This document shows positions 573-25,900 of a stretch of 34,575 nt of DNA, piece by piece; position 1 is the first letter of the stretch; each line of letters begins with the position of its first letter. Made by a program: the position numbers and the translations under genes. Source of the stretch: an uncultured Alphaproteobacteria bacterium (GTDB lineage: Bacteria; Pseudomonadota; Alphaproteobacteria; Parvibaculales; Parvibaculaceae); contig CAISYL010000026.1 of the NCBI GenBank assembly GCA_903889655.1, forward strand, positions 1 through 34,575, in the 5' to 3' direction. The notes beneath the pieces were generated by a model. That model was given only the letters and a program-made list of their open reading frames with translations, was not told the origin of the DNA and searched no databases.

Positions 573-1262
573 TCAATCGAGCCGCAGCCGGTAGCCAACG
601 CCCGTTTCGGTCAGGATCAGCTGCGGACGGGTCGGATCGGCCTCGAGCTTTTCCCGCAATTGGCGGATATAGACACGGAGATATTGCACGTCTTCCGTAT
701 GGGCGGGCCCCCATACCTCCTTGAGCAGGAAGCCATGCGTCAGCACCTTGCCCGCATGTGCGATAAGGAGCCGCAAAAGGTCGTACTCCTTCGCGGAGAG
801 CTTCACGTCTTCATCGCCGACCGTCACCACGCGGCGCACGAGATCGACGGACAGCGCTCCGCTGCGGAAGATCGGCGCCTCTCCCTGCACTTGCAACCTG
901 TGGCGCAGGGCGGCACGGACGCGGGCGACCAGCTCCTCCATGCCGAATGGTTTCGTCACATAGTCGTCGGCGCCGAGATCGAGCGCGCGCACCTTGCCTT
1001 GCTCATCGCTGCGCACGGAGAGCACGATGATCGGAACCTGCGATTGCGCGCGCAGGCTTTCGATGACGGAAAAGCCGTCGCCGTCGGGCAGACCGAGATC
1101 GAGGATGACGAGGTCCGGCTTCTCCTTCGTCGCCATCGCCTGTGCTTCGGCTGCATTCACCGCCTCCGTCAGGCGAAAGCCCTGCGCGCCAAGGCTTGTG
1201 CGCAGGAAACGACGGATTTGCGGCTCGTCGTCGACGACGAGGATATGGGTCTGGGCGGTCAT
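573..1262 (-). CDS. kdpE: KdpE, response regulator of the Kdp potassium system
   Basis: This is a 229-residue OmpR/PhoB-family response regulator. The receiver domain (about 5-118) shows the acidic pair D11-D12, the phospho-acceptor D55 in VILDLGLPDGDG, and the conserved lysine in YVTKPFG. A winged-helix DNA-binding domain (about 130-226) ends in the typical ETGVGYRL hairpin. Its start codon overlaps the stop of kdpD by four bases (ATGA), so the sensor and regulator are translationally coupled. It should be phosphorylated by KdpD when potassium or turgor is low and then activate the operon promoter upstream of kdpF. It is the last gene of the operon. No hairpin terminator is visible in the 26 bases before the convergent tRNA. 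Confidence 0.96.
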   Translation of the reverse strand: MTAQTHILVVDDEPQIRRFLRTSLGAQGFRLTEAVNAAEAQAMATKEKPDLVILDLGLPDGDGFSVIESLRAQSQVPIIVLSVRSDEQGKVRALDLGADDYVTKPFGMEELVARVRAALRHRLQVQGEAPIFRSGALSVDLVRRVVTVGDEDVKLSAKEYDLLRLLIAHAGKVLTHGFLLKEVWGPAHTEDVQYLRVYIRQLREKLEADPTRPQLILTETGVGYRLRLD

Positions 1263-3955
1263 GCTTTGCGCTCTGCTACGTCGGAGGAGCCGGCCGGCAG
1301 CGCGATGGTGAATTGCGCACCGCGTCGGTCGCTCCGGTTGGTGGCGATGATGTGGCCGCCGAAGGCTTCGACAAAACCCCGGCAGACGGCGAGGCCGAGC
1401 CCCGTTCCGGCAGGCCGCTGGTCGCCGGCGCGCACGCGGTGGAACTTGTCGAAGATGAGGTCGATCTCGTCCGGCGGTATGCCTTCGCCTTCATCGGTCA
1501 CGCGGATGAGAATTTCTCCGCGGGCGTGATCGGCGTCGACGCGGATGAGGCTACCCGCCGGAGAATATTTCGCCGCATTGTCGAGAAGATTGAAGATGAC
1601 CTGTTCGAGCAGGACCGCATCGGCGCGGACGGGAGGCAACCCCGAGGACAAGTCGACTTCGACGCGATGCTTCGACAGCATGCGCGCGGCGCGGCGCAAA
1701 GCCGTCTCGATCAGTTCGCTGATCTCGACACGGTCGGCACGGATGTTGAGCGCGCCGGATTCGAGGCGTGTGATGTCGAGGAGATTGCCGACGAAACGAT
1801 TGAGACGTTCGGCCTCGTCTTCGATGGTGGCGACGAGCTCGGTTCGCTGCTTGGCGTCGTACTGGTCGAAATAGCTTCGCAGGCTCGACGCCGCACCGAT
1901 GATCGAGGCGAGCGGCGTTCTGAGATCGTGCGAGATGGAGGTGAGGAGCGCGCCGCGCAGACGCTCAGTCTCGCTCATCAGCCGTGCATTATCGACGTCC
2001 TCCCCGAGACGGATGCGCTCGATGGAAACCGCGATCTGGTCGAGCAGGGCGTCGAGAAGCCGGCGTTCGTCGGCCGTAAAAAGCGGTCCCGGCGCTTCGC
2101 GATCGAGGCCGACGACGGCCAGGAGGCCGGTTGCGGTCTTGATCGGCAGGAAGAGACGTTTGGCGCCGGGCAGCGTGTCCGAGCCGCGACCAGCGGCTTG
2201 CTGATGGTCATAGGCCCAGCGGGCGGCGGCGAGATCCGCTTCGTCCGCGACGTCTTCGGGCGGATAGGCGGCGGCGACGCTCATATGTCCTTCGGCAGGA
2301 AAGAGAAAGACCACGCGCAGCTTCAGCATGGACGCGATCTGGAAGGCGGCCGCCCAAAGAAGATCGTCGAGATCGTCGATGCCGGCGAGCTTGCGGCTGA
2401 AGGAGTTGAGTTCCGACGTCGTCTTGACCTGCGATTGGGCGACGACGATCTGGCGTCTCGTGCGTGCTGTCAGATTGCTGGTGAGAACGGCGACGATGGT
2501 GAAGAAAATGAGCGCGAGGATGTTCGCGGGATCGGTGATCGTGAAGGTGTAGAGCGGTGCCAGAAAAAAGAAGTTGTAGGCGAGCGTACTGATCAGTGAG
2601 GCATAGAGTGACGGCCATAGTCCGTAATTGACGGCCGTGTAGAGAATGGCCGCCAGAAAGACGAGGGAGATGTTGGGCAGTGGCACGATGGACTGGATCA
2701 GCTCGCCGATGGCAAGCGCCGCGACGACGGTGAGTGTGCTGATCCCGTAGGGAACGGGATCGATACCGTCGGCTGCAACGCGGGTGCGGACCGGTTTGCT
2801 TGCCGCGCCTTCGTCATCGCCCGGCACGATGTGAATGCCGATCGGTCCGGCGTCGCGAATGAGATTGCTGACGATCGTCGGCCGCAGCATGCCGAACCAA
2901 TGGGCGCCATTTGGCCTGCCGAGTACGATCTGCGTCACGTTATTCTCGCGCGCATAGTCGAGGATCGCCTCGGAGAGCCGTTCGCCTGTCAGCATGACGG
3001 CCTCGCCGCCGAGCGTTTCGGCGAGCCGGAAGGCCTCGCTCATCCTGTCGCGGTCGGCCTCGGTCAACGGAACATGGCCCAGCGTCTCGACATGGATCGC
3101 CGCCCATGTGCAGCGCAGGCGATCGGCCGCACGGCGTGCATAGCGCACCAGGCCGACGGAGGCCGGGCCCCCGTCGATGCAGACGAGAAGCCGCTCGTCG
3201 GTCGCCCAGGGCCCGGCGATCGCATGCGCGCGCATATAGCTCAGCATCTGCTCGTCGACGCGCTGGGCGGTGCGCCGGAGCGCCAGCTCGCGCAATGCGG
3301 TCAGATTGCCGGGCGAAAAATAATGTTTCAGCGCGCGTTGCGCGGCGTCGCGGACATAGACCTTGCCTTCATGAAGACGCTGGATCAGCTCTTCCGGCGT
3401 GATGTCGATGACTTCGATTTCGTCGGCCCGATCGATGATCGAGTCCGGCACCGTCTCGCGGACGCGGATGCGCGTGATCTGGGCGACGACGTCGTTGAGG
3501 CTCTCGACATGCTGGACATTGAGCGTCGTATAGACGTCGATGCCGGCGTCGAGCAGCTCCTCGACATCCTGATAGCGTTTGGGATGGCGCGATCCCGGCG
3601 CATTGGTGTGAGCGAGTTCGTCGACGAGAACGAGGGAAGGGCGGCGCGCAAGCACCGCGTCGATATCCATCTCCTCGAGAATGCGGCCCTTGTAGGCGAT
3701 GCGGGCGCGGGGGAGAGCGTCGAGGCCGCGCGTCAGCCTTTCGGTCTCCGCGCGGCCGTGCGTTTCGACGATGCCGATGACGACATCGATGCCTTCTCTC
3801 TGACGCTGTGCACCCGAACTCAACATCTCGTAGGTCTTCCCGACACCGGGCGCGGCACCGAGAAATATCTTGAGCTTGCCGCGCCCTTCCGCCGCTACCT
3901 GTTCCAGCAAGGCTTCAGGGGTAGGCCGTCTTGCCGTCTGGTCGGTGCTTGTCAT
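1259..3955 (-). CDS. kdpD: KdpD, potassium-sensing histidine kinase
   Basis: This 898-residue membrane histidine kinase has the full KdpD architecture. An N-terminal KdpD domain carries Walker A GAAPGVGKT (33-41) and Walker B LVLVDELAH (108-116). A universal-stress-protein-like domain spans about 255-380. Four closely packed membrane segments span about 405-495, and a GAF-like region about 520-645. The HisKA domain has the phospho-acceptor H676 in SISHDLRTPL. The ATPase domain has the N box (NLLDNAAKYSP) and GTGLGLAVCRGF. It phosphorylates KdpE and controls kdpFABC. It starts 23 bases after kdpC with AGGGAT as ribosome-binding site, and its stop overlaps the kdpE start. Length and domain order match the family. 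Confidence 0.97.
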   Translation of the reverse strand: MTSTDQTARRPTPEALLEQVAAEGRGKLKIFLGAAPGVGKTYEMLSSGAQRQREGIDVVIGIVETHGRAETERLTRGLDALPRARIAYKGRILEEMDIDAVLARRPSLVLVDELAHTNAPGSRHPKRYQDVEELLDAGIDVYTTLNVQHVESLNDVVAQITRIRVRETVPDSIIDRADEIEVIDITPEELIQRLHEGKVYVRDAAQRALKHYFSPGNLTALRELALRRTAQRVDEQMLSYMRAHAIAGPWATDERLLVCIDGGPASVGLVRYARRAADRLRCTWAAIHVETLGHVPLTEADRDRMSEAFRLAETLGGEAVMLTGERLSEAILDYARENNVTQIVLGRPNGAHWFGMLRPTIVSNLIRDAGPIGIHIVPGDDEGAASKPVRTRVAADGIDPVPYGISTLTVVAALAIGELIQSIVPLPNISLVFLAAILYTAVNYGLWPSLYASLISTLAYNFFFLAPLYTFTITDPANILALIFFTIVAVLTSNLTARTRRQIVVAQSQVKTTSELNSFSRKLAGIDDLDDLLWAAAFQIASMLKLRVVFLFPAEGHMSVAAAYPPEDVADEADLAAARWAYDHQQAAGRGSDTLPGAKRLFLPIKTATGLLAVVGLDREAPGPLFTADERRLLDALLDQIAVSIERIRLGEDVDNARLMSETERLRGALLTSISHDLRTPLASIIGAASSLRSYFDQYDAKQRTELVATIEDEAERLNRFVGNLLDITRLESGALNIRADRVEISELIETALRRAARMLSKHRVEVDLSSGLPPVRADAVLLEQVIFNLLDNAAKYSPAGSLIRVDADHARGEILIRVTDEGEGIPPDEIDLIFDKFHRVRAGDQRPAGTGLGLAVCRGFVEAFGGHIIATNRSDRRGAQFTIALPAGSSDVAERKA

Positions 3956-3978
3956 CTATCCCTGTCGGGTCGGAGCGC

Positions 3979-4578
3979 TTATCCCGTCACACCGGCGTCG
4001 AGAGCCATGTTGAGCTTCAGGACATTGACGGTCGGTTCGCCGATGATACCGATCGTTCGTGGCTTCGTGAACTGGTCTACGAGCGCCTGAACCTTGGCTG
4101 GATCGAGATTCCGGGCCTTGGCGACGCGGGGAACCTGGAAAAGCGCCGCGGCGGGCGTGATATCGGGATCGAAGCCGCTCGCCGATGTCGTGACCATATC
4201 GACGGGGACGGGCGCACCGGGATTCTCGGCCTTGAGCTTGTCGACATCGCCCTTGATACGGTCCATCAACGCCTTGCTCGTCGGCCCGAGATTGGAGCCC
4301 ATCGAGTTCGCGGCATTGTTGGGCAGCGAGATCGAATTGCCCTTGTCGTCGGTCCCCGTCGTCGCCGACGGCCGGCCGTGGAAGTATTTCTCGCTCGTGA
4401 AGGTCTGGCCGATGATCTCGGAGCCGATCACGGTGCCGTTCTTTACGATAAGGCTGCCTTCCGCCTGATGCGGAAAGAAGGTCTTTGCGACGCGGGTCAT
4501 GCCGAGCGGATAGGCAAGACCGAGGAGCAGCGTGAAGAGTGCAAGCAGAACGATGGCAGGACGGATTTCTTTCAACAT
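3979..4578 (-). CDS. kdpC: KdpC, accessory subunit of the potassium-transporting ATPase
   Basis: This is a 199-residue protein with one N-terminal membrane helix (about 7-26, rich in Leu/Val/Ala) and a periplasmic domain typical of KdpC, including [19 protein letters not shown] and the [10 protein letters not shown] segment that family members use near the start of the soluble domain. KdpC stabilises the KdpA-KdpB complex and raises its potassium/ATP affinity. It follows kdpB after 11 bases, as expected for an FABC order. Nothing appears truncated. Confidence 0.95.
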
Positions 4579-4589
4579 GGTTCTATTCC

Positions 4590-6677
4590 TCAGACGAGCC
4601 CGATCGTCGTGATGATGACATCGATGAGCTTGATGCCGATGAAGGGGACGATCACGCCGCCGGCGCCGTAAATCAGAAGGTTGCGGACCAGGAAGGCGGC
4701 CGCGCTGCGCGGCGTGTACTGGACGCCCCTGAGTGCGAGCGGGATCAGGGCGATGATGATCAGTGCATTGAAGATGATCGCGGACAGGATCGCGCTTTGC
4801 GGGGTCGCGAGGTGCATGATGTTGAGCACGCCGAGGCCCGGATAGAAGACCGCGAACATGGCCGGGATGATGGCGAAGTATTTCGCGACGTCGTTGGCGA
4901 TCGAGAATGTCGTCAGCGTTCCGCGCGTCATCAGCAATTGCTTGCCGATGGCCACGATCTCGATGAGCTTGGTCGGATCGCTGTCGAGGTCGATCATGTT
5001 GCCGGCTTCGCGGGCGGCTTGCGTGCCTGTCTGCATGGCGACGCCGACATCAGCCTGCGCGAGAGCGGGGGCGTCGTTCGTGCCGTCGCCGCACATGGCG
5101 ACGAGCTTGCCCTTGGCCTGCTCTTCGCGGATGAGGCTCAGCTTGTCTTCCGGCGTCGCCTGGGCGAGGAAGTCGTCCACGCCCGATTCCGCCGCGATGG
5201 CGGCGGCCGTCAACGGGTTGTCGCCGGTGATCATGATGGTGCGGATGCCCATCCGGCGGAGCGCGGCAAAGCGTTCGCGGATACCGCCCTTGATGATGTC
5301 CTTAAGATGGATGACGCCGAGAATGGCGTTGTCCTTCGAGACGGCGAGCGGCGTGCCGCCGGCGCGCGCTATGCGGTCGACAACCTGCTGAAACTCCTTC
5401 GGCACGACGGCATTCGGCGCATTCGTGCTGACGAATTTGAGGATCGAGTCGGCGGCACCCTTGCGGATACGGTGACCGTCGACGTCGATGCCGCTCATGC
5501 GCGTCTGCGCGGAGAAGGGAATGAAGGTCGCATGGAGATTGGCGAGTTCGCGTCCACGCAGGCCGTATTTTTCCTTGGCCAGAACCACGATGGAACGGCC
5601 TTCCGGCGTTTCGTCGCTCAGAGAAGAGAGCTGGGCGGCGTCGGCGAGATCCTGGTCGCTGACGCCGGGCATCGCGACGAATTCGCTGGCGACGCGATTG
5701 CCGAGCGTAATGGTGCCCGTCTTGTCGAGAAGCAGCGTATCGACGTCGCCCGCGGCTTCGACGGCTCGCCCCGACATGGCAAGCACATTGAACTTGACCA
5801 GGCGGTCCATGCCCGCAATGCCGATGGCCGACAGCAATGCGCCGATGGTCGTCGGAATGAGGGTAACAAAGAGCGCAACCAGAACCGTGACCGAGACCGT
5901 GCCGCCGGCATAGGCGGCAAAGCTCGGGATCGTCACCGTCGCGAAGAGGAAGATGATGGTGAGGCCGACGAGAAGGATATTGAGCGCAATCTCGTTCGGC
6001 GTCTTTTGACGCTCCGCGCCTTCGACGAGATGGATCATCCGGTCGAGGAAGGTCGAGCCCTGAGCCGCCGTGATGCGGACCTTGATCTGGTCCGACAGCA
6101 CGCGCGTGCCACCGGTGACAGCCGAGCGGTCGCCGCCGCTCTCGCGGATGACAGGCGCGGATTCGCCGGTGATGGCGGATTCGTCGACCGAGGCGACGCC
6201 TTCGATGACTTCGCCGTCGCTCGGGATCAGGTCATTGACCTCGGCGAGAACGATGTCGCCGACCTTGAGCTGGGCGGCAGGCACGATTTCATACTGGGTG
6301 CCGTCTCTTTTCAGGAGCTTGGCAACGGCTTCGGACCGCGTGCGGCGGAGTGCATCGGCCTGGGCCTTGCCGCGGCCCTCGGCCAGTGCCTCGGCAAAGT
6401 TCGCGAAGATGACCGTGAACCACAGCCAGAAGACGATCTGCACGGTGAAGCCGAGATGGGCGCCGCCGGTTGCGAGGTCACGTACCAGCAAAACGGTCGT
6501 CAGTGCGGCGACGATCTCGACGACGAACATGACCGGATTCTTGATCAGGGTTCGCGGGCTGAGCTTGACGAGGGAGTCGATGATCGCCTGCCTGACGAGG
6601 TCGCCCCGGAAGAGCGACGACGTCTTGATGCGATGAGACGAAGGTTCGCCGGCCATCGGATTGTGAGCGAGTGACAT
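4590..6677 (-). CDS. kdpB: KdpB, P-type ATPase subunit of the potassium pump
   Basis: This 695-residue type IA P-ATPase is the energising subunit of KdpFABC. The phosphorylated aspartate is D318 in [10 protein letters not shown]. The actuator loop TGES lies at 170-173; the serine corresponds to the residue whose phosphorylation inhibits the E. coli pump. The nucleotide-binding and hinge motifs [14 protein letters not shown] and [20 protein letters not shown] are intact. Several hydrophobic segments (about 50-95, 235-285, and 590 to the end) agree with seven membrane helices. It follows kdpA after 9 bases. Confidence 0.97.
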
Positions 6678-6686
6678 GGTTGTTCC

Positions 6687-8414
6687 TCAGTAAAGCGTGC
6701 CGTGGATCATCGAGAAGTGTTCGACGATCGGACCGAGCGAGAGGGCGGGGAAGTAGGTAAGGCCGCCCACGATGATGATGACCGCGATGAGGATCGCGAC
6801 GAAGAGGCCGCCATCCGTCGGGAACGTTCCGGCGGAAGAAGCGACGACCTTCTTGCGGGCAAGGGAGCCGGCGACGGCGAGCATCGGCACGATCATTCCG
6901 AAGCGGCCGATCGCCATCGCGAGCCCGAGCGTGATGTTGTAGAAGGGCGTATTGCCCGTCAGGCCGCCGAAGGCGCTGCCGTTGTTGGCCGTCGTCGAGC
7001 TGAAGGCGTAGAGGATTTCACTGAAGCCATGAGGGCCGGCATTGGCGATGCTCGACACGCCGAAGGGAAGCGAGCTTGCAAGCGCAGTGAAACCGAGCGT
7101 CGAGAAGGGCAGGATGATGATGGCGAGCGCCGTCATCTTGACGTCGTAGCCCTCGATCTTCTTGCCGACATATTCCGGCGTGCGTCCGACCATCAGGCCG
7201 GCGATGAAGACCGCGACCACCGCAAAGAGCAGCATGCCGTAGAGGCCCGAGCCGACACCGCCGAAGATGATCTCCCCGAGCTCCATGTTGACGAGCGGCA
7301 CGAGGCCGGCCAGCGGCGTGAAGCTGTCATGCCAGGCGATGATGGCGCCGCAGGACGCATCCGTGGTGACTGTGGCGAATAGCGCGGAGTTCGCGATGCC
7401 GAAGCGGACATCCTTGCCCTCCATGTTGCCGCCCGGTTGAAACGCTGTCGTCGTCTGATCGACGCCGAGAGCGGCAATATTCGGATTGCCGACCGCTTCG
7501 AAGTGATAGGCGACGAGAGCGCCGACCAGGAACAATATGCTCATGGTGCCGAACAGCGCCCAGCCCTGCCATTCGTTGCCGACCATGCGGCCGAAGACGT
7601 TGGTGAGTGCCGCGCCGATCGCGAAGATCAGAACCATCTGGACGAGATTGGTCAGCGCGTTCGGATTCTCGAAAGGATGGGCCGAATTGGCGTTGAAGAA
7701 GCCGCCGCCATTGGTGCCGAACATCTTGATCACTTCCTGGGAAGCGACCGGACCGACGGCTATGCTCTGATGCGCGCCCTCGATAGTCGTCGCATCGACA
7801 TAGGCGCCGAGCGTCTGCGGCATGCCCTGCCAGATGAAGAAGAGGCCGACGACGATCGAGACGGGGAGAAGCACATAGAGCGAGCACCGGGTGAGATCGA
7901 CCCAGAAATTGCCGAGCCCGTTGGCGGAAGCGCGCGAGAATCCGCGGATAAAGGCAAGCGCCAGCGCGATGCCGGTGGCCGCAGAAACGAAGTTGTGAAC
8001 GGTGAGGCCGGCCATCTGCGTGAAATAGCTCAGCGTCGTCTCGCCGCCGTAATTCTGCCAGTTCGTATTGGTGACGAAGGAGATCGCCGTGTTGAAGGCA
8101 AGCATCGGCTCCACGGCGCCGAAACCCTGCGGATTAAAGGGCAGGTAGCCCTGAAGCCGCAGCATGGCGTAGAGGAGAATGAAGCAGGCGAGATTGAACA
8201 TCAGCATCGCGCCGCCATAGCGGAGCCAATGCTGGTCATCTTTTTCATCGACGCCGGCAAGTTTGTAGAAGACGACTTCGATAGGCCGGAGGATCGGCGT
8301 GAGGAAGACATAGTCTCCCTTGAACACGCGGGTCATGTAGCCGCCGAGGGGGCGGGCCACAAGCAGGATGATCACGCTGAAGATCGCGATCTGGATAAGA
8401 CCGTTGGCTGTCAT
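6687..8414 (-). CDS. kdpA: KdpA, potassium-channel-like subunit
   Basis: This is a 575-residue polytopic membrane protein of the superfamily of potassium transporters, carrying the selectivity filter of the Kdp pump. The four filter repeats are recognisable: [13 protein letters not shown] (113-125), [12 protein letters not shown] (233-244), the region near [11 protein letters not shown], and [14 protein letters not shown]. The first helix begins immediately ([18 protein letters not shown]). Length agrees with the family (about 560-590). It lies 9 bases after kdpF and 9 before kdpB. Confidence 0.97.
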
Positions 8415-18610: not shown

Positions 18611-19702
18611 CTAGTTCGGGCTCTGCTGCTGTTGTTGCTGCTGTTGGTTCTGAAGCAGACTGTCGCTACCGCCATTGTTATTGTCGATGCCTCGCGTGCT
18701 TTCCTTCTGCTGGCTGTAGCTGTCCTGCATCTTGGGGTCGCCGGATCCTTCGACGGCGCCATCGATCTCCGTGGCGGTCGTCGGGTCGGACTTGCCGATT
18801 TCGCTGGCGGCATCGGCAAGGCCCTTGCCTGTTGCGGCTTTCAGATTGTCGTCGAAGTATTTGGCGCCGCTGACAATGTCGGAAGCCGCCTCCGCCTGGT
18901 CGACCGAGCCCTGTACATAGTCGCTCACGGCCCTGGACAGATCGTCCGAGCCGACGCCCGCCTGGGCAATGCCGGCGGCGATATCCTGCAGGTTCTGTGC
19001 GGAAGCCTCACTGCCGACCGCGCCGATGGCGGCGAGAATTTGGGCTGCGGTTGCCGCCGGATTGTCCGAACTCTGAATAAGTTTCGCGACTGCGTCCGTC
19101 AGCGAACCGCTCTGGTCGACCGTCGAGCCATCCGGGCCGATGAGAACGAGATTGCCCTTGACCTCCATTGTCGAGGTCTTGCCGTCCTTGCCGGTCACGA
19201 TCGCCTTGCCGTCGGCGAGTACCACGGCCAGAGCGTCGTTGGTGGCGACGATATTGAGGATCGTGCCGCGTACGCCGATGGTGGCGACCGCCGTCTTGAT
19301 CTCGTAATTGCGTGGATCCTGCGCGCCGGTGACGAAACGCAGCGCCCCCTTGGCGACGCCGATGGCGACTGTGCCGGATGATGCGTTCGGGTCGTAGGCG
19401 AATTTGTCGATCTTGACGTCGGAGCCGGGCGCGATCTTGAGGTTCGTCTGGTCGAGGAATAGCAGTTCCGCAGAGCCGGTCTTGCCAGTCCGCACGACGT
19501 CGTTCTCGAAGACGGCGCCTCCGGAAAGCAATGCATGAACAGCCCCTCCGGTCTCACCCTGCACATCGTTCCTGACCGTCGCGACGACGCCGGCCTTCGG
19601 GGCCGCATCGGCGAATGCCGGCTGCGTTGTGGCGATGCCGACGACCAGCGAGGAGATCATGACGAAGCCGTGAAGCTTCGTTCCGCCAAATGAAAAGGTC
19701 AT
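18611..19702 (-). CDS. Exported FecR-domain protein with poly-Gln C-terminus
   Basis: This 363-residue protein starts at ATG 19700-19702, behind CGGGGGCGG. A signal peptide (about 12-32, MISSLVVGIATTQPAFA) precedes a FecR domain (about 45-165): GGAVFENDVVRTGKTGSAEL, LFLDQTNLKIAPGSDVKIDK and AVATIGVRGTILNIV are the standard signatures of FecR domains outside iron-dicitrate systems. The C-terminal half (about 190-340) is Ala/Asp/Ser-rich and helical. It ends in a low-complexity tail with eight consecutive Gln. There is no membrane helix after the signal, so it should be periplasmic or surface-associated, not an anti-sigma factor. It is divergent from the TPR gene and has its own terminator. Confidence 0.85.
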   Translation of the reverse strand: MTFSFGGTKLHGFVMISSLVVGIATTQPAFADAAPKAGVVATVRNDVQGETGGAVHALLSGGAVFENDVVRTGKTGSAELLFLDQTNLKIAPGSDVKIDKFAYDPNASSGTVAIGVAKGALRFVTGAQDPRNYEIKTAVATIGVRGTILNIVATNDALAVVLADGKAIVTGKDGKTSTMEVKGNLVLIGPDGSTVDQSGSLTDAVAKLIQSSDNPAATAAQILAAIGAVGSEASAQNLQDIAAGIAQAGVGSDDLSRAVSDYVQGSVDQAEAASDIVSGAKYFDDNLKAATGKGLADAASEIGKSDPTTATEIDGAVEGSGDPKMQDSYSQQKESTRGIDNNNGGSDSLLQNQQQQQQQQSPN

Positions 19703-19983
19703 GTGCCGCCCCCGAGCGGAAAAAACTGAACTGCCCCGGCGCCACATATCTTCGTGAGTTCCGATGAGCTATCCGCATGCAGCGCTGAATTCAGACCACA
19801 CAATAATTTCAGAGAATTAGATATGAGAAAATCGCATCTCGGCTCATTACGCCGTCCGGATTTTCGAGAGTCGGAAATTTCGCGCGAATATTGCGCAGGA
19901 ATGGTTCAATCTGCTTGTCGAACAGACGCCCAAAACCGCCGACGGGCGGGTTTTTAGCCGACGAATCTACTAAAGGCAGTGTC
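19703..19983. promoter_or_regulatory. Divergent intergenic region between the FecR and TPR genes
   Basis: These 281 bases hold no convincing gene. A stretch around 19795-19890 is clearly richer in A/T than its surroundings and is the likely place for both promoters. On the TPR side lies a terminator-like hairpin (19931-19955). No CRP-like palindrome was recognised. Confidence 0.5.
19931..19955 (+). terminator. Terminator-like hairpin in the leader of the TPR gene
   Basis: The sequence CAAAACCGCC-GACG-GGCGGGTTTTT has a short GC stem flanked by A and T runs, as in intrinsic terminators. It lies 28 bases before the ATG of the TPR gene and points into it. It could be an attenuator or the end of a short upstream transcript. 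The stem is only 5 bp plus A-T pairs. Confidence 0.45.
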
Positions 19984-20265
19984 ATGAAGATTCCAATAGT
20001 GACGATCTTGCCGATTATTCTGATTGCCGCGGCGGGGCAGGTGGCCGCGGACGAACTCGAAACGACTTATGCGGCGCTGATGAGCGACGTGCGGAATACG
20101 TCCCTCAATCTGCGCTATGCCCATCTGGCGGAGGATCAGGGCAAGCTCAAATGGGCGCTGCCCGCCTATGAACGGGCGCTGAGGAACGACCCCGCCAATA
20201 CGGATGCCCGGGCCGGTCTCGTCCGCGTCAGGGCTGCGCTCGCGGCACCGGAGGGGTCAAAGTAA
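19984..20265 (+). CDS. Small exported TPR protein
   Basis: This 93-residue protein starts at ATG 19984-19986 with AAAGG eight bases upstream. Residues 1-22 are a signal peptide (PIVTILPIILIAAAGQVAA). The rest is one and a half tetratricopeptide repeats: LRYAHLAEDQGKLKWALPAY followed by ERALRNDPANTDARAGL, with the expected small residue and Pro positions. The isolated unit resembles the N-terminal TPR section of larger periplasmic proteins encoded near FecR-domain genes, but no such extension exists here. It is divergent from the FecR gene and convergent with the phosphatase gene (7-base gap). It is probably a small periplasmic scaffold. Confidence 0.72.
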   Translation: MKIPIVTILPIILIAAAGQVAADELETTYAALMSDVRNTSLNLRYAHLAEDQGKLKWALPAYERALRNDPANTDARAGLVRVRAALAAPEGSK

Positions 20266-20272
20266 CCGCATC

Positions 20273-21655
20273 TCAGTTCACGGGACCGTAGTGCAGGCTG
20301 AGGCAGGTGATGTCGTCGAATTGCGGCGTCTCGCCGGCAAACGCGTCCACAGCCGCGATGATGGTGTCGATGGCCTGCCGGCCTGGCATCGAGGCGGAGT
20401 GCTTCACCACCTCACCAAGGCGATCGTCGCCGAAGAGCGTCTTGTCGGCGTTGTGCGCCTCGGTAATGCCGTCCGTATAGAGAAAGAGCCTGTCGCCCGG
20501 CTTCATCACCGTCGTGCGGCTTTTGTACGGCGCCTCCTCGAACATGGCGAGCGCGATGCCGGTATTCGTCAGCATCTCGACTGCGCCATCCTTGCGCACC
20601 AGAAGCGGTGGATTGTGCCCGCAATTGCAATAGGTGAACTCGCCCGTGTCGAGATCGAGAATGCCGTAGAAGAGCGTTGCGAACATCGAAGAGACGTTTT
20701 CGGCGCAGAGCAGAAGATTGGCGCGGGCCATGGCCGTCGCGAGATCGAGTTCCTGCCGGACCACGAGACGTGTCACCGTCTGGGTGATGGCCATGAAAAG
20801 CGAGGCAGGCACACCCTTGCCGCAGACGTCGCCGATCGAAACGCCGAGACGCCGCTCGTCGAGTTGCAGCACGTCGTAAAAATCGCCACCGACCTCGCGC
20901 GCGGGCCGCATCTCGGCATGGATGTCAACTTTGCCGATCAGCTCTTCCAGAGCCGTCGTTCGCGGCAGCATGGCGCGCTGGATGAGCGACGCACTGGCCA
21001 TTTCATCGTGCTGGCGCCGCCGCAGAATGATCTGCTCGGCCATCCGCCGGAAGGTCTGTGCGAAGTCGACGAGTTCGGGCACCGGATTGAGCAGCGTGTC
21101 GAGGATCGCGGGATCGAAATCGTGCCGCTCCAAAGCGGCCAGTGCATTGGTGTAAAAGCCGACCGCCTTGTTCACGGCGCCGAGCCGCTGGCCGAGTTGG
21201 CCGATGACCGAAAGCAGCAGGCCTGGATTTGCGCGCCCCGCCTCCAGCAGGGCGCCGCGGCCGAGGCAGAGTACCCGGACCGGTCCTATTGCCCGGAGCG
21301 TCGCGGTGCGGGGCAGGTTGGCGAACACACCGATATCGCCGATCAGGCTCCGGACGGGCAGGCGCGCAAGGGAAACCGCGCCGAAGCTGCTTTCCGCGAT
21401 AACCTCGACTTCGCCTTCGATGACGAAAAAGGCCACATCACTCGGATCCCCCTGCCGGACCAGTACCTCGTCCGGGGCATAGGCGGCGGTCGAGCTTCCG
21501 TCGATCAGCCTGGACAGGGCTCCCTCGGTGAAATCGTTAAAGGCCGGGTGCTGACGGACGAGCCCCTTCAGCTCCGTAAGGTCTACGTCATAAGGCATAG
21601 TCAGCGTCCCGCGCAGCCTTTGGGTGATCGTCGGAGAAATATCTTTCTCGAGCAT
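20273..21655 (-). CDS. cNMP-binding domain / SpoIIE-type serine phosphatase
   Basis: This is a 460-residue soluble protein. A cyclic-nucleotide-binding domain (about 35-140) has VLVRQGDPSDVAFFVIEGEV and the phosphate-binding cassette GDIGVFANLPRTAT (106-119); the cassette Glu is replaced by D107, while R116 is kept. A helical linker (about 145-225) leads to a PP2C/SpoIIE phosphatase domain (about 225-460) with the metal-binding motifs PAREVGGDFYDV (D258), IGDVCGKGVPASLFM (D276), LYTDGITEA and QFDDITCL. Such enzymes usually dephosphorylate anti-anti-sigma proteins; no STAS or anti-sigma gene is nearby. The start at 21655 is chosen for AAGGA upstream. It is divergent, by 115 bases, from the cNMP-binding channel gene. 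Confidence 0.9.
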   Translation of the reverse strand: MLEKDISPTITQRLRGTLTMPYDVDLTELKGLVRQHPAFNDFTEGALSRLIDGSSTAAYAPDEVLVRQGDPSDVAFFVIEGEVEVIAESSFGAVSLARLPVRSLIGDIGVFANLPRTATLRAIGPVRVLCLGRGALLEAGRANPGLLLSVIGQLGQRLGAVNKAVGFYTNALAALERHDFDPAILDTLLNPVPELVDFAQTFRRMAEQIILRRRQHDEMASASLIQRAMLPRTTALEELIGKVDIHAEMRPAREVGGDFYDVLQLDERRLGVSIGDVCGKGVPASLFMAITQTVTRLVVRQELDLATAMARANLLLCAENVSSMFATLFYGILDLDTGEFTYCNCGHNPPLLVRKDGAVEMLTNTGIALAMFEEAPYKSRTTVMKPGDRLFLYTDGITEAHNADKTLFGDDRLGEVVKHSASMPGRQAIDTIIAAVDAFAGETPQFDDITCLSLHYGPVN

Positions 21656-21770
21656 AAGCTGTGTTCCTTCCCCAGCGATTGTCAATGACGGTGCTGGCAA
21701 TCTAGGCTGGAGAGGCCGCTTCCCCGCGTCCCTATCGTTGGGGCATGGAGTGGCAGGGGGCGAAACTCGC

Positions 21771-23201
21771 ATGATCCTGTTCTCCGCCATTGTCGTGGTC
21801 GGCCTGACGCTGCTGCGTTTCTGGGCGTCCGACTGGTTGTTGGCGGTGCTTCCCGCAGCGATGGGGCATTTCACCGTCAACGCGCTCGGCATTTCCCTGT
21901 CGGTAGCGGCGGCCATCCTTGCGGACCAGTTTTTCCGGAACGTTTACTGGAACCGGATTTTTCGTCGAAGAAAGGGGCGCAAGGCCCCGGCTCTTGTCCG
22001 CGACCTCGTGACGACCCTGTTCCTGACGATAGGCCTCTCGACCGGACTTTATTTCGAACTCGGCGTGGCGGCCTCCGGCATCGCGGCGGTCTCCGGTGCG
22101 ACCGCCGTCGTTCTCGGTTTCGCCCTGCAGACGATGATCCAGGATCTCTTTGGAGGTCTCTCCGTCAATCTGGATCGCTCTTATGCGATCGGCGACTGGC
22201 TCACCATTCATCATCCAGATCTCGGCGCGCCCGCTTACGGTCGTGTGGAGGGTATAAGCTGGCGCACGACTTTTTTGTCGCTTCCAGACGGACGCATGCT
22301 GATCGTTCCGAACCGTGTGGTGACCGCCAATCCCCTGACCAATCATAGCCGCCCGTCGGGTGCCAAGCGCCTGACGGTCGATGTTTGCATCGATTTGAGG
22401 GTGCCGTCCGAGCGTGTCGTCAACATTCTGATGGGTGAGGCCTTCAAAGCGGTTCAGGGACCGGGCTTCAGCCAGAAGCCGGCTCCTTCGATTCTGGTGA
22501 GCAAGATCGAGCAGGACGCCGTGACCTATTCCGCCCGCTTCTACGTCGATCCGGATCGGATCGAGATCGAGGTGGCGCGGTCGATCATGTTCCGGGCGCT
22601 TCAGGATGCTATTCGCCGGACCGCGATGCCGACGCCGGTTCAGCAGATCGAGATTACGCAGCCGCCGGCGGGGGTAACGGATTTTGCGGAAGAGGCTCTG
22701 GCCGCGATCGGCCGTGTTCCGCTCTTCGCCGAAACGCTCGGTGAAGAACAGAAGGTTGAACTCGCCGGTCGATGCAGGCACATGTCTCTCCCTGCGGGAA
22801 GTGCCCTTATCCGGCAGGGGGATGGCGGCGGATCGATGTTCGTGATCCTCGACGGCGCGGCGAACGTCACCGTAAAGGGAACTGACGGCGCCGATCAGCA
22901 TGTCAACGTGCTCGCGCTTGGCGACATCGTCGGCGAGATGTCGCTCATGACGGGCACCCCCAGAACCGCGACGGTTCGCGCGGCGACCCCGCTACGGGTG
23001 CTGGAGATCACGAAAGAAGCGATCGAAGGATTGCTGGTGGCCGCACCGGAACTGCTCGAACTCTTCAGCCAGATTCTCGCCGAACGTCAGGCGCAACTCA
23101 ACGAGGCATCGAACAGGCCCGGCAAGTCGAAGGCGGCCGAACTCGACCTCCTGTCGAAGATGCGCATATTTTTCGTGCGAAGCTTCGGAACGGCGGATTG
23201 A
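21771..23201 (+). CDS. MscS-family channel with C-terminal cNMP-binding domain
   Basis: This is a 476-residue inner-membrane protein. Three or four membrane segments occupy about 1-125. The pore-lining helix and MscS signature lie at 100-135 (ASGIAAVSGATAVVLGFALQ, then QDLFGGLSVNLDRSYAIGDW). The beta domain follows (VEGISWRTTFLSLPDGRMLIVPN split over 159-181), then the alpha/beta domain to about 295. Residues 315-430 are a cyclic-nucleotide-binding domain with an intact cassette: GEMSL (388-392, E389) and PRTAT (397-401, R398). This matches the bacterial cyclic-nucleotide-gated subgroup of MscS channels. The ATG at 21771 has GGGGGCG about ten bases upstream; an in-frame GTG seven codons earlier is possible. 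Confidence 0.92.
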   Translation: MILFSAIVVVGLTLLRFWASDWLLAVLPAAMGHFTVNALGISLSVAAAILADQFFRNVYWNRIFRRRKGRKAPALVRDLVTTLFLTIGLSTGLYFELGVAASGIAAVSGATAVVLGFALQTMIQDLFGGLSVNLDRSYAIGDWLTIHHPDLGAPAYGRVEGISWRTTFLSLPDGRMLIVPNRVVTANPLTNHSRPSGAKRLTVDVCIDLRVPSERVVNILMGEAFKAVQGPGFSQKPAPSILVSKIEQDAVTYSARFYVDPDRIEIEVARSIMFRALQDAIRRTAMPTPVQQIEITQPPAGVTDFAEEALAAIGRVPLFAETLGEEQKVELAGRCRHMSLPAGSALIRQGDGGGSMFVILDGAANVTVKGTDGADQHVNVLALGDIVGEMSLMTGTPRTATVRAATPLRVLEITKEAIEGLLVAAPELLELFSQILAERQAQLNEASNRPGKSKAAELDLLSKMRIFFVRSFGTAD

Positions 23202-23208
23202 CGGCGCT

Positions 23209-23595
23209 TCAGCCCTGCGACGCGAGCGCGCCGAGCATCGCGGCGTAGGTCAGGTGGTGGACGAACTGGTCGAAGCCGATCGCATGCCAGAAAGCGGAAT
23301 CAGCCGTCGTCCAGCCATTGGTCCTGACCACGCGCTCCTTGAGCCAGTCGACGTGATAATGGACCGCGAATTCCGCAACGATGAGCCCTGCCGCAAGCGC
23401 CAATGACGGGCCGAAGAGCAGAATGGCCGGCAGCGAGCCGAGCGCATGCAGGCCGGCATGGAGAATGCCGCCCGGGTGCCCGTAAGTACCCTTGTTCTTG
23501 AGCTGATAACCCGTCTGGAAAACGAAATCGAAGAGGAAGTGCTTGAACTGCAGCAAGACGAGTCCGCCCAGTAGCATCGATAGCGGATCGCTCAT
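23209..23595 (-). CDS. DUF3307 membrane protein
   Basis: This is a 128-residue protein with three or so hydrophobic segments. Conserved features of the DUF3307 family are visible: the early KHFLFDFVFQT, the HAGLHALGSLPAILL helix with its histidines, HYHVDWLKE, and the C-terminal FDQFVHHLTY. The conserved His/Asp residues hint at metal binding, but the function is unknown. The start at 23593-23595 (GGGAGCAGGA just upstream) follows the adenylate cyclase gene after 49 bases on the same strand, so the two are probably co-transcribed. A weak hairpin (GCCTGC/GCAGGC, 23617-23634) lies in that gap. The gene is convergent with the MscS gene. Confidence 0.85.
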   Translation of the reverse strand: MSDPLSMLLGGLVLLQFKHFLFDFVFQTGYQLKNKGTYGHPGGILHAGLHALGSLPAILLFGPSLALAAGLIVAEFAVHYHVDWLKERVVRTNGWTTADSAFWHAIGFDQFVHHLTYAAMLGALASQG

Positions 23596-23644
23596 TCCTG
23601 CTCCCGTTACTGTTTCGCCTGCTTCAATGCAGGCAAAGGTGCTT

Positions 23645-25900
23645 CTACTTCTCCGACGCGACGAAGGCGCCGTTCCAGTCGGCGGGCGGAGGTATGCGCC
23701 GGAATTCTGCAATGCGGCTTTCAAAAAGACCATAGAGTGTTTCGAGCGCCGCGATGCCCTTCGACCGGCAGGTCGCCAGCGCGGCTTCGGCGGCGTCCCA
23801 GTCGCGGCTTCTGTACTTCACAAGCAGCGCACCATGCGCGGTGGCGATCTCGCTTTGCTGGTCCGCGCTGCAACCGACCGTATCGAGAAGCGTGTAGAGC
23901 CGCGACGGTCGGGAACGGCCTTTGACCTGAACGAGGTCGATCTCGATCATCGAAAAATCGGGACATCGCGAAGCCGTTCCTTCGCTGACGACCGTCGTGA
24001 GGCCGTAGAATTTCGACAGGCCTTCGAGACGCGAGGACACGTTGACCTCGTCGCCGATGGCAGAATAGTCGAAGCGCTGCGTCGAACCGAGATTGCCGAC
24101 GCAGCAGATGCCCGTGTTGAGGCCGATGCCGATCTTGACCTCCTTGAACGCCCGGCCGTTCGCTTCCGCCTCCGCCCGCCAGCGTTCGTTCAGCGGTTTC
24201 ATCTCCGCGGCAATGACCCGCGCGGCGTCGCAGGCGTGACGGGCATGATCGCCATCGTCCAGCGGTGCGTTCCAGAAGGCCATGACCGCGTCGCCCATAT
24301 ATTTGTCGACCGTGCCCGAGCGATCGAGAATGATGTCGGTGAGCGGCGTGAGAAGCTCGTTGATGAAGCGGGTGAGTTCCGTCGCGGTCAGGCCTTCCGA
24401 GATGCTCGTGAAATTGCGCACATCGCAGAAGAGGATGGTGAGTTCGCGTTCCTCGCCGCCAAGAACGAGCTTTTCGGGATGTGCGATCAGCTGCTGCACG
24501 ACGGTGGGCGACACATATTGTCCGAAAGCGCGACGCACTTCGGCGCGCTGCTGTTCCGTGCGCCGGTACAGATAGGCGGTCGCGCCGGCGACGAGCAGAA
24601 AGAGGCAGAGCGCCGGATAGAGCGGATCGAACAGAAGGCCGGCGCGTGTGAAGGCAAGCCATCCGCCGACCGGCAAGGCGATGAGGAGCGAGAGCGAGAT
24701 CGGCGCCGCGACGAGAGCCGACATGCGCGGCAGCAGAAAGGCGAGCACGGTGCCGAGAACGGCAACGAGCGCCAGTTCCATCGGCAGGGCATAGTCGGGC
24801 CGCGTCAGGAACTTGCCGGACAGGATATGCTCGAGAATCTGCGCATGAACCTCGACGCCCGGCACACCTTGCGCCAGCGGCGTCGCACGAAGATCGATGA
24901 GTCCCGCGGCGCTCGTGCCGACCAGGATGATGCGCCCTGCAATGTCATCGGGATTGAGTGCGCCGGAAAGAATGCGCCACGCCGGAATATAGGCTTCCGG
25001 ATGCGCCTGCCGATACCGGACCCAGACGCCGCCGTCGGCATCCGTCGGCACCTCGAATTGGCCGATCCTGATGTGATTGAGGCCGGTGGCGCGGCCATAG
25101 GTGGATTCTCCGCTCGCATTCGACGCTTTCAGCAGGAAGCTGCTCGCGCCCTGAGCGACGCGAAGGGCCTCGGCCGCCAGCGACGGAACGATGATATCGT
25201 CCTTGGCGAACATCAGCGGCACGCGACGCACGACTTCGTCGCGATCCGGTATCCAGTTGATGGCGCCGAGCCCGGCGGCGGCATTCTGGATTTCCGGCAG
25301 ATTGACCACCGCTCCCGAATAATTCTGCAGGAACGGGCGCGGGTCGTCGCCGGCAATGGCGAAGCCAGCTTTGGATTTGAAATCCGGAGCGCCCTGGCCG
25401 TGGTTGAGCGTCACCGCAAGCACGGTCGGCGCCCGGGCGACGCTTTGCGCGAAGAGCGCATCGTTGTCGGGTAAAGTCCCGACGGCTTTCGTCAACGCCT
25501 CGGCGGCGGGTTTCGGCAGGCCGGCGGCGATCCGGTCGAGCGAGGTGCGGTCGGCCTCTGCGAACATCACGTCGAAGGCGACAACCGCCGCGCCGTCGGC
25601 GGCGAGCTTGTCGCGCAACTCCGCGATCACGCTGCGCGGCCATGGCCATTGCCCAAGCCGCTTCAAGGATTCCTCGTCGATATCGACAATGCGAACGGGC
25701 AGGCTCGGATCGTAAGTGCCGGGCGCGACCTGCTGATAAATGTCGAAGGCAATGAGGCGTAATGCCTTCACCGGAAAGGGATCGCTGACCCGCAGGAAGA
25801 TAGCGGCCGCAATGAAGATGATAACGCCGACGGCATAAAGGGAGGGAAGGCGGACGAACCTGTTGAGCAGGCGCTTCAGCACATCGACATTGCCTGGCAT
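23645..25900 (-). CDS. CHASE2-domain class III adenylate cyclase
   Basis: This is a 751-residue membrane enzyme. Helix 1 (about 20-37) is followed by a periplasmic CHASE2 domain (about 45-365) with signatures IVDIDEESLKRLGQWPWPR, VAFDVMFAE and IILVGTSAAGLIDLRATP. Three further helices (about 371-391, 394-417, 422-445) lead to a cytoplasmic cyclase domain (about 485-670). The catalytic set is complete: metal aspartates D493 (LFCDVRNFTS) and D537 (DKYMGDAVMAFW), purine-specifying K533 and S613, and transition-state N620 and R624 (GDEVNVSSRLE). Lys plus Ser/Thr favours ATP over GTP. It should make cAMP in response to an envelope signal. A helical tail (about 690-751) follows. It is transcribed with the DUF3307 gene. 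Confidence 0.94.
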   Translation of the reverse strand: MPGNVDVLKRLLNRFVRLPSLYAVGVIIFIAAAIFLRVSDPFPVKALRLIAFDIYQQVAPGTYDPSLPVRIVDIDEESLKRLGQWPWPRSVIAELRDKLAADGAAVVAFDVMFAEADRTSLDRIAAGLPKPAAEALTKAVGTLPDNDALFAQSVARAPTVLAVTLNHGQGAPDFKSKAGFAIAGDDPRPFLQNYSGAVVNLPEIQNAAAGLGAINWIPDRDEVVRRVPLMFAKDDIIVPSLAAEALRVAQGASSFLLKASNASGESTYGRATGLNHIRIGQFEVPTDADGGVWVRYRQAHPEAYIPAWRILSGALNPDDIAGRIILVGTSAAGLIDLRATPLAQGVPGVEVHAQILEHILSGKFLTRPDYALPMELALVAVLGTVLAFLLPRMSALVAAPISLSLLIALPVGGWLAFTRAGLLFDPLYPALCLFLLVAGATAYLYRRTEQQRAEVRRAFGQYVSPTVVQQLIAHPEKLVLGGEERELTILFCDVRNFTSISEGLTATELTRFINELLTPLTDIILDRSGTVDKYMGDAVMAFWNAPLDDGDHARHACDAARVIAAEMKPLNERWRAEAEANGRAFKEVKIGIGLNTGICCVGNLGSTQRFDYSAIGDEVNVSSRLEGLSKFYGLTTVVSEGTASRCPDFSMIEIDLVQVKGRSRPSRLYTLLDTVGCSADQQSEIATAHGALLVKYRSRDWDAAEAALATCRSKGIAALETLYGLFESRIAEFRRIPPPADWNGAFVASEK

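Follow-up and report, generated by a model that had tools for sequence, protein, structure and literature searches.

Can neighbouring genes for a receptor cyclase, two different proteins with cyclic nucleotide-binding (cNMP) domains and several predicted envelope proteins be regarded as one cAMP signalling module? The question is raised by a locus in the DNA stretch analysed here (the window: 34,575 nucleotides, positions 1 to 34,575 of contig CAISYL010000026.1, assembly GCA_903889655.1, from an uncultured member of the Parvibaculaceae, G000 in our genome set). A preliminary description had proposed that an envelope signal raises the cAMP level, and that cAMP then acts on an MscS-type channel and on a phosphatase, with FecR and TPR proteins as envelope partners. 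Our comparisons suggest a smaller core: the cyclase and the channel, possibly together with a DUF3307 protein, are likely to form a dedicated cAMP circuit. We consider such a circuit probable because enzyme and channel are paired again in distant bacteria, where the cyclases are different ones.

Layout of the locus

The genes of the locus are distributed over both strands (channel and TPR genes on the + strand, the rest on the - strand; Table 1), and the six genes are not one operon; a single six-gene operon was rejected on the basis of strand. There are at least three transcription units: the FecR and TPR genes, which are head to head, the phosphatase and channel genes, also head to head, and the cyclase gene followed by the DUF3307 gene. 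The starts of the channel (21771), phosphatase (21598), DUF3307 (23592), FecR (19702) and TPR (19984) genes were set from their relatives, and the export and membrane location of the proteins were taken from sequence and family knowledge. All domains named in the preliminary description other than TPR were recovered by Pfam. The TPR gene is present, but it encodes a stub that is below the Pfam cut-off and is not conserved. The region between the phosphatase and channel genes contains a 10-bp block, GATTGTCAAT, which is kept in three species and whose complement contains TTGACA. The LysR gene flanking the locus in the window is not conserved.

Table 1. Features of the locus, in window coordinates
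Feature	Position	Strand	Evidence or remark
FecR-domain protein, predicted exported, 363 aa, C-terminus Q/N-rich	18611..19702	-	Pfam FecR 2e-13 (ORF 18611-19747)
TPR stub, 93 aa, N-terminal remnant of TPR + beta-barrel-like protein	19984..20265	+	
SpoIIE/PP2C-type phosphatase with N-terminal cNMP-binding domain, 441 aa	20273..21598	-	Pfam N-terminal cNMP_binding 2e-13, SpoIIE 1e-52 (ORF 20273-21916)
Divergent intergenic region common to phosphatase and channel genes	21599..21770	.	172 bp
MscS-type channel with C-terminal cNMP-binding domain (bCNG-like), 476 aa	21771..23201	+	Pfam MscS beta-domain (MS_channel_2nd) 1e-14, C-terminal cNMP_binding 2e-20 (ORF 21624-23201)
DUF3307 protein, 127 aa	23209..23592	-	Pfam DUF3307 2e-6 (ORF 23209-23733); 52 bp downstream of cyclase
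CHASE2 class III adenylate cyclase, 751 aa	23645..25900	-	Pfam CHASE2 3e-60, Guanylate_cyc 1e-15

The CHASE2 cyclase

The cyclase had been called catalytically complete, and a residue check agreed with this: all six class III residues examined (the two metal Asp, the Lys/Asp pair, Asn and Arg; DKDDNR) are intact. The Lys/Asp pair is typical of ATP as substrate, and cAMP is the predicted product. Orthologues were found in G014 (78% identity), G036 (67%), G001 (42%) and G031 (40%). The channel is absent from G001 and G031, and in G031 the cyclase gene is adjoined by a FecR gene and an OmpA-family gene.

A paralogous CHASE2 cyclase gene of the same organism (G000:C45:5669-7870; L067:5657-7927) has orthologues (L006-L030) in most Parvibaculaceae genomes. 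In all of them the catalytic residues have degenerated, with G,R,D,E,S,Y as the usual set at the positions of D,K,D,D,N,R (GRDESH in G000), and this family-wide paralogue is a conserved pseudocyclase.

The channel and its pairing with the cyclase

With its MscS beta-domain followed by a C-terminal cNMP-binding domain, the predicted channel fits the bCNG architecture. Its cNMP cassette (GDIVGEMSLMTGTPRTATVRA) is canonical, and the phosphate-binding cassette keeps the Glu and the Arg (GEMSLMTGTPRTAT; VGEMSLMTGTPRTAT); cAMP is the presumed ligand. When genome contigs were searched with the channel, one close relative was obtained, from Parvibaculum sedimenti (NZ_WESC01000010.1), the named species found to be nearest to the Parvibaculum-like source of the window, along with two spirochaete matches to the cNMP domain only; a plasmid search gave two Azospirillum channels (34-35%) in unannotated records.

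Among 40 genomes of the family, a full-length channel is encoded only in G000, G014 (P. sedimenti) and G036, the phosphatase in exactly those three, and all three carry the orthologous cyclase. The order and orientation of the cyclase, DUF3307, channel and phosphatase genes are identical in G014 and G036. The flanks are kept in G014, whereas in G036 the cluster is set among quite different flanking genes and a FecR/TPR-barrel gene pair is inserted between the channel and DUF3307 genes. In Parvibaculum the channel and cyclase genes are convergent, hence they are not co-transcribed.

Channels from outside the family were sought in a class-wide sample of 385 genomes. The best of them, those of G300 and G043, belong to two other alphaproteobacterial families and form with the channels of the three Parvibaculum species (G000, i.e. 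the window protein, G014 and G036) a clade of five members with a support of 100/100. All five adjoin a CHASE2 cyclase gene and a DUF3307 gene, the DUF3307 homologue adjoining the channel in G014, G036, G300 and G043. In G300 and G043 the upstream cyclase gene overlaps the channel gene by 4 bp (ATGA), the DUF3307 gene is convergent to this pair, and the pair is downstream of a gene for a CHAT/TPR protein; in G300 this gene is itself preceded by one for a ShlB/FhaC-type transporter. In the stretches L104:1992-9437 and L105:10566-16261 the genes ahead of the CHASE2 cyclase and channel encode a small exported protein as well as the CHAT/TPR protein, and L104 has the ShlB/FhaC-type transporter.

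The cyclases beside these five channels are not one clade: forcing them into one costs 69.5 log-likelihood units (p-AU 6e-5, from a quick tree with long rows omitted). As the channels form one clade and the cyclases do not, the phylogeny indicates that the pairing outlasted a change of the cyclase or arose twice, that is, it formed anew or exchanged one partner. Such a combination is expected where selection preserves the pair although one of its members changes. In the wider channel family two more pairs were found, in G390, together with a Crp-type regulator, and in G750. CHASE2 cyclase pairs thus occur at 4 of the 28 MscS-cNMP loci outside the family, where about 0.14 would be expected (P about 2e-5), an excess that is real. 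At the other 24 loci a CHASE2 cyclase is absent in the DNA examined, some contigs being too short to tell, so the pairing seems to be optional for the wider channel family. Judged by the comparison of gene neighbourhoods suggested in the preliminary description, the proposed wiring is supported in part: linkage of cyclase, channel and DUF3307 genes was seen in three Parvibaculum species and two other families, and that of cyclase and channel genes, without DUF3307, in two further distant genomes.

Two of the distant loci have additional neighbours. At L112:5278-10464 three cAMP-related genes, encoding a Crp-type regulator, a CHASE2 cyclase and an MscS-cNMP channel, are close to each other. In G750 (L138:9027-19221) one strand carries all of the genes for FecR, a cadherin/beta-propeller surface protein, an MBL-fold protein, the CHASE2 cyclase and the MscS-cNMP channel; a role as cNMP phosphodiesterase is possible for the MBL-fold protein.

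The phosphatase

The phosphatase gene is head to head with the channel gene in three species and two genomic surroundings. In all three linked Parvibaculum orthologues the cassette (SLIGDIGVFANLPRTAT) keeps the Arg and has D where Glu is usual. Full-length orthologues are rare outside Parvibaculum; two unlinked ones, in G185 (class sample) and G751 (phylum sample), keep the usual Glu (GE vs. GD), and neither a cyclase nor a channel gene was seen near them. The phosphatase is therefore a conserved neighbour within Parvibaculum (3/3) but not outside it, and its phosphate-binding cassette is atypical. SiaA was the best NCBIfam match, far under the cut-off (66.9 of 700 bits), and no STAS domain was detected among those window genes that were scanned. 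Because of the exact co-occurrence and the fixed position in the three species, it is plausible that the phosphatase is a second, lineage-specific effector of the circuit.

The FecR and TPR genes

The FecR protein of the window is 67% identical to that of G014. The FecR in the G036 cluster shares 64% identity with a FecR from an exopolysaccharide cluster, against 31% with the window FecR, and on these values the window and G036 proteins were rejected as orthologues; each of the three species has a FecR in its cluster, though not the same one. In 106 genomes of the class, a FecR match lies within 5 kb of 23 of the 103 CHASE2 matches, where about 0.6-0.7 would be expected; in the window the distance between the FecR gene and the cyclase is 5.2 kb. 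FecR thus appears to be a general partner of CHASE2 envelope systems: the association proposed earlier is real, but it is generic rather than specific to this locus.

In alignments the TPR stub covers just the N-terminal part of relatives of 379-431 amino acids (G036; exopolysaccharide clusters of G000 and G014), which have a C-terminal barrel-like region, one of them with a sub-threshold SlipAM match. The stub is absent from the locus of P. sedimenti, and it is probably decaying. Genes for FecR and full-length TPR-beta-barrel proteins are also found head to head at L068:7060-9279 and L070:7828-10047, with adjoining exopolysaccharide-type genes; near L068 there are genes for sugar-nucleotide enzymes and polymerase-like and priming transferase genes. 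A sensory role of FecR and TPR, which the preliminary description implied, should not be the default assumption. In Sinorhizobium meliloti proteins of these two kinds lie on the output side of the cAMP-Clr pathway and are unneeded for perception of the signal (PMC5498481).

Discussion

In the circuit that we propose, the periplasmic CHASE2 domain would read an envelope condition and the cytoplasmic class III domain would make cAMP. Binding of cAMP to the C-terminal domain of the channel would open the channel or shift its tension threshold, and the efflux of ions or solutes would change. The DUF3307 membrane protein would be a constant accessory of the pair. In Parvibaculum there could be a second output, as the N-terminal cNMP domain of the phosphatase may let the same cAMP pool control a partner-switch-like phosphoprotein, while FecR would be part of the general CHASE2 envelope toolkit. 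That the cyclase beside the channel represents a dedicated bCNG-type cAMP circuit, with a phosphatase arm specific to Parvibaculum, seems to us the reading to be preferred, and we hold it with some confidence. It must be noted that several observations speak against it: the 24 of 28 distant loci without a CHASE2 cyclase in the DNA examined, the convergent, not co-transcribed genes in Parvibaculum, the related cyclases of G001 and G031, which have no channel, and the unlinked phosphatase orthologues of G185 and G751. A more far-reaching interpretation is that a receptor cyclase with its own cyclic nucleotide-gated channel makes a hard-wired circuit from envelope to ion flux, similar in logic to animal sensory transduction, which came together on more than one occasion, with DUF3307 as a recurrent partner but with CHASE2 cyclases that differ, and was extended in Parvibaculum by a cAMP-responsive phosphatase; this we put forward tentatively.

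It is also conceivable, but somewhat unlikely, that the functional unit consists of the cyclase and the channel (with or without DUF3307) only, that the phosphatase, FecR and TPR proteins do their own jobs, and that the cNMP domain of the phosphatase is structural or binds another ligand. The lack of linkage of the phosphatase outside Parvibaculum, the GD of the linked and the GE of the unlinked proteins, the low identity of the window FecR to that of the G036 cluster, which resembles an exopolysaccharide-cluster FecR instead, and the missing TPR stub in G014 would all fit such a restricted unit, whereas the head-to-head arrangement in three species, the exact co-occurrence of phosphatase and channel in 40 genomes and the enrichment of FecR near CHASE2 genes do not. 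Shared descent of a few related genomes without any functional coupling could likewise account for the cluster, which within the family is carried by three species only. This we regard as improbable, in view of the different flanks in G036, the orthologous channels adjoining non-orthologous cyclases and the independent pairs in G390 and G750.

The cyclase could instead act in transcription control of the Clr/Crp type known from S. meliloti; FecR would then be an envelope output, as the TPR-barrel protein would once have been, and the channel a minor extra. In S. meliloti the FecR protein SMc02177 is encoded near CyaD1, cAMP-Clr activates FecR and TPR genes (PMC5498481), and the outer-membrane barrel NsrA senses the signal and is needed for its perception (PMC13001267). 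The CyaD1/CyaD2/CyaK - NsrA - Clr system resembles our locus in having a CHASE2 cyclase near a FecR gene and in involving TPR and outer-membrane barrel proteins, and FecR genes near CHASE2 genes are widespread. On the other hand, no Crp-type gene was found among the locus genes examined, the Clr-type site HGTYHCNNNNGRWACA (PMC10127613) is not above chance in the window (two one-mismatch matches, neither at a promoter of the locus genes, vs. four expected), and CRP palindromes gave no match in an exact or a relaxed search. The neighbouring cNMP-domain proteins of the window, which may bind cAMP, are a channel and a phosphatase, the barrel protein is only a stub, and among the partners in the clade the channel is the more constant one. 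A transcriptional role of this kind is thus unlikely to be the main one.

Our preferred cyclase-channel circuit has partial parallels in other systems. SiaA/RsbU-type phosphatases share the SpoIIE/PP2C catalytic domain with the window phosphatase; the input of the latter is a cNMP-binding domain, and a STAS partner was not identified near it. The Burkholderia BiofilmReg operon, consisting of a LysM/FecR protein and a CHASE2 histidine kinase (PMC5192318), likewise places an exported protein of the FecR type next to a CHASE2 sensor, but it acts through a histidine kinase instead of a cyclase and has no channel. The bCNG channels (Caldwell et al. 2010 and Malcolm et al. 2012, as cited in PMC4560390) belong to the MscS superfamily and carry a cNMP domain at the C-terminus. 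The window channel is like them in the MscS core followed by a C-terminal cNMP domain, with a canonical cassette, and differs in having a linked cognate cyclase. We did not find a pairing of CHASE2 cyclase and bCNG channel described in the open-access literature, through whose citations the bCNG papers are known to us.

To our knowledge, neither the role of bCNG channels in their hosts nor the cyclase that feeds them has been established. A channel whose gene is linked to that of a single receptor cyclase, and shares an operon with it in two families, makes the question testable in a few strains. If the circuit exists, it would be a function of a CHASE2 cyclase other than transcription control, and would provide the first context for DUF3307.

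At positions 573-8414, approximately 10 kb from the module, the window carries kdpABC and kdpDE (potassium uptake and its sensor), and kdpA is nearby in P. sedimenti as well.
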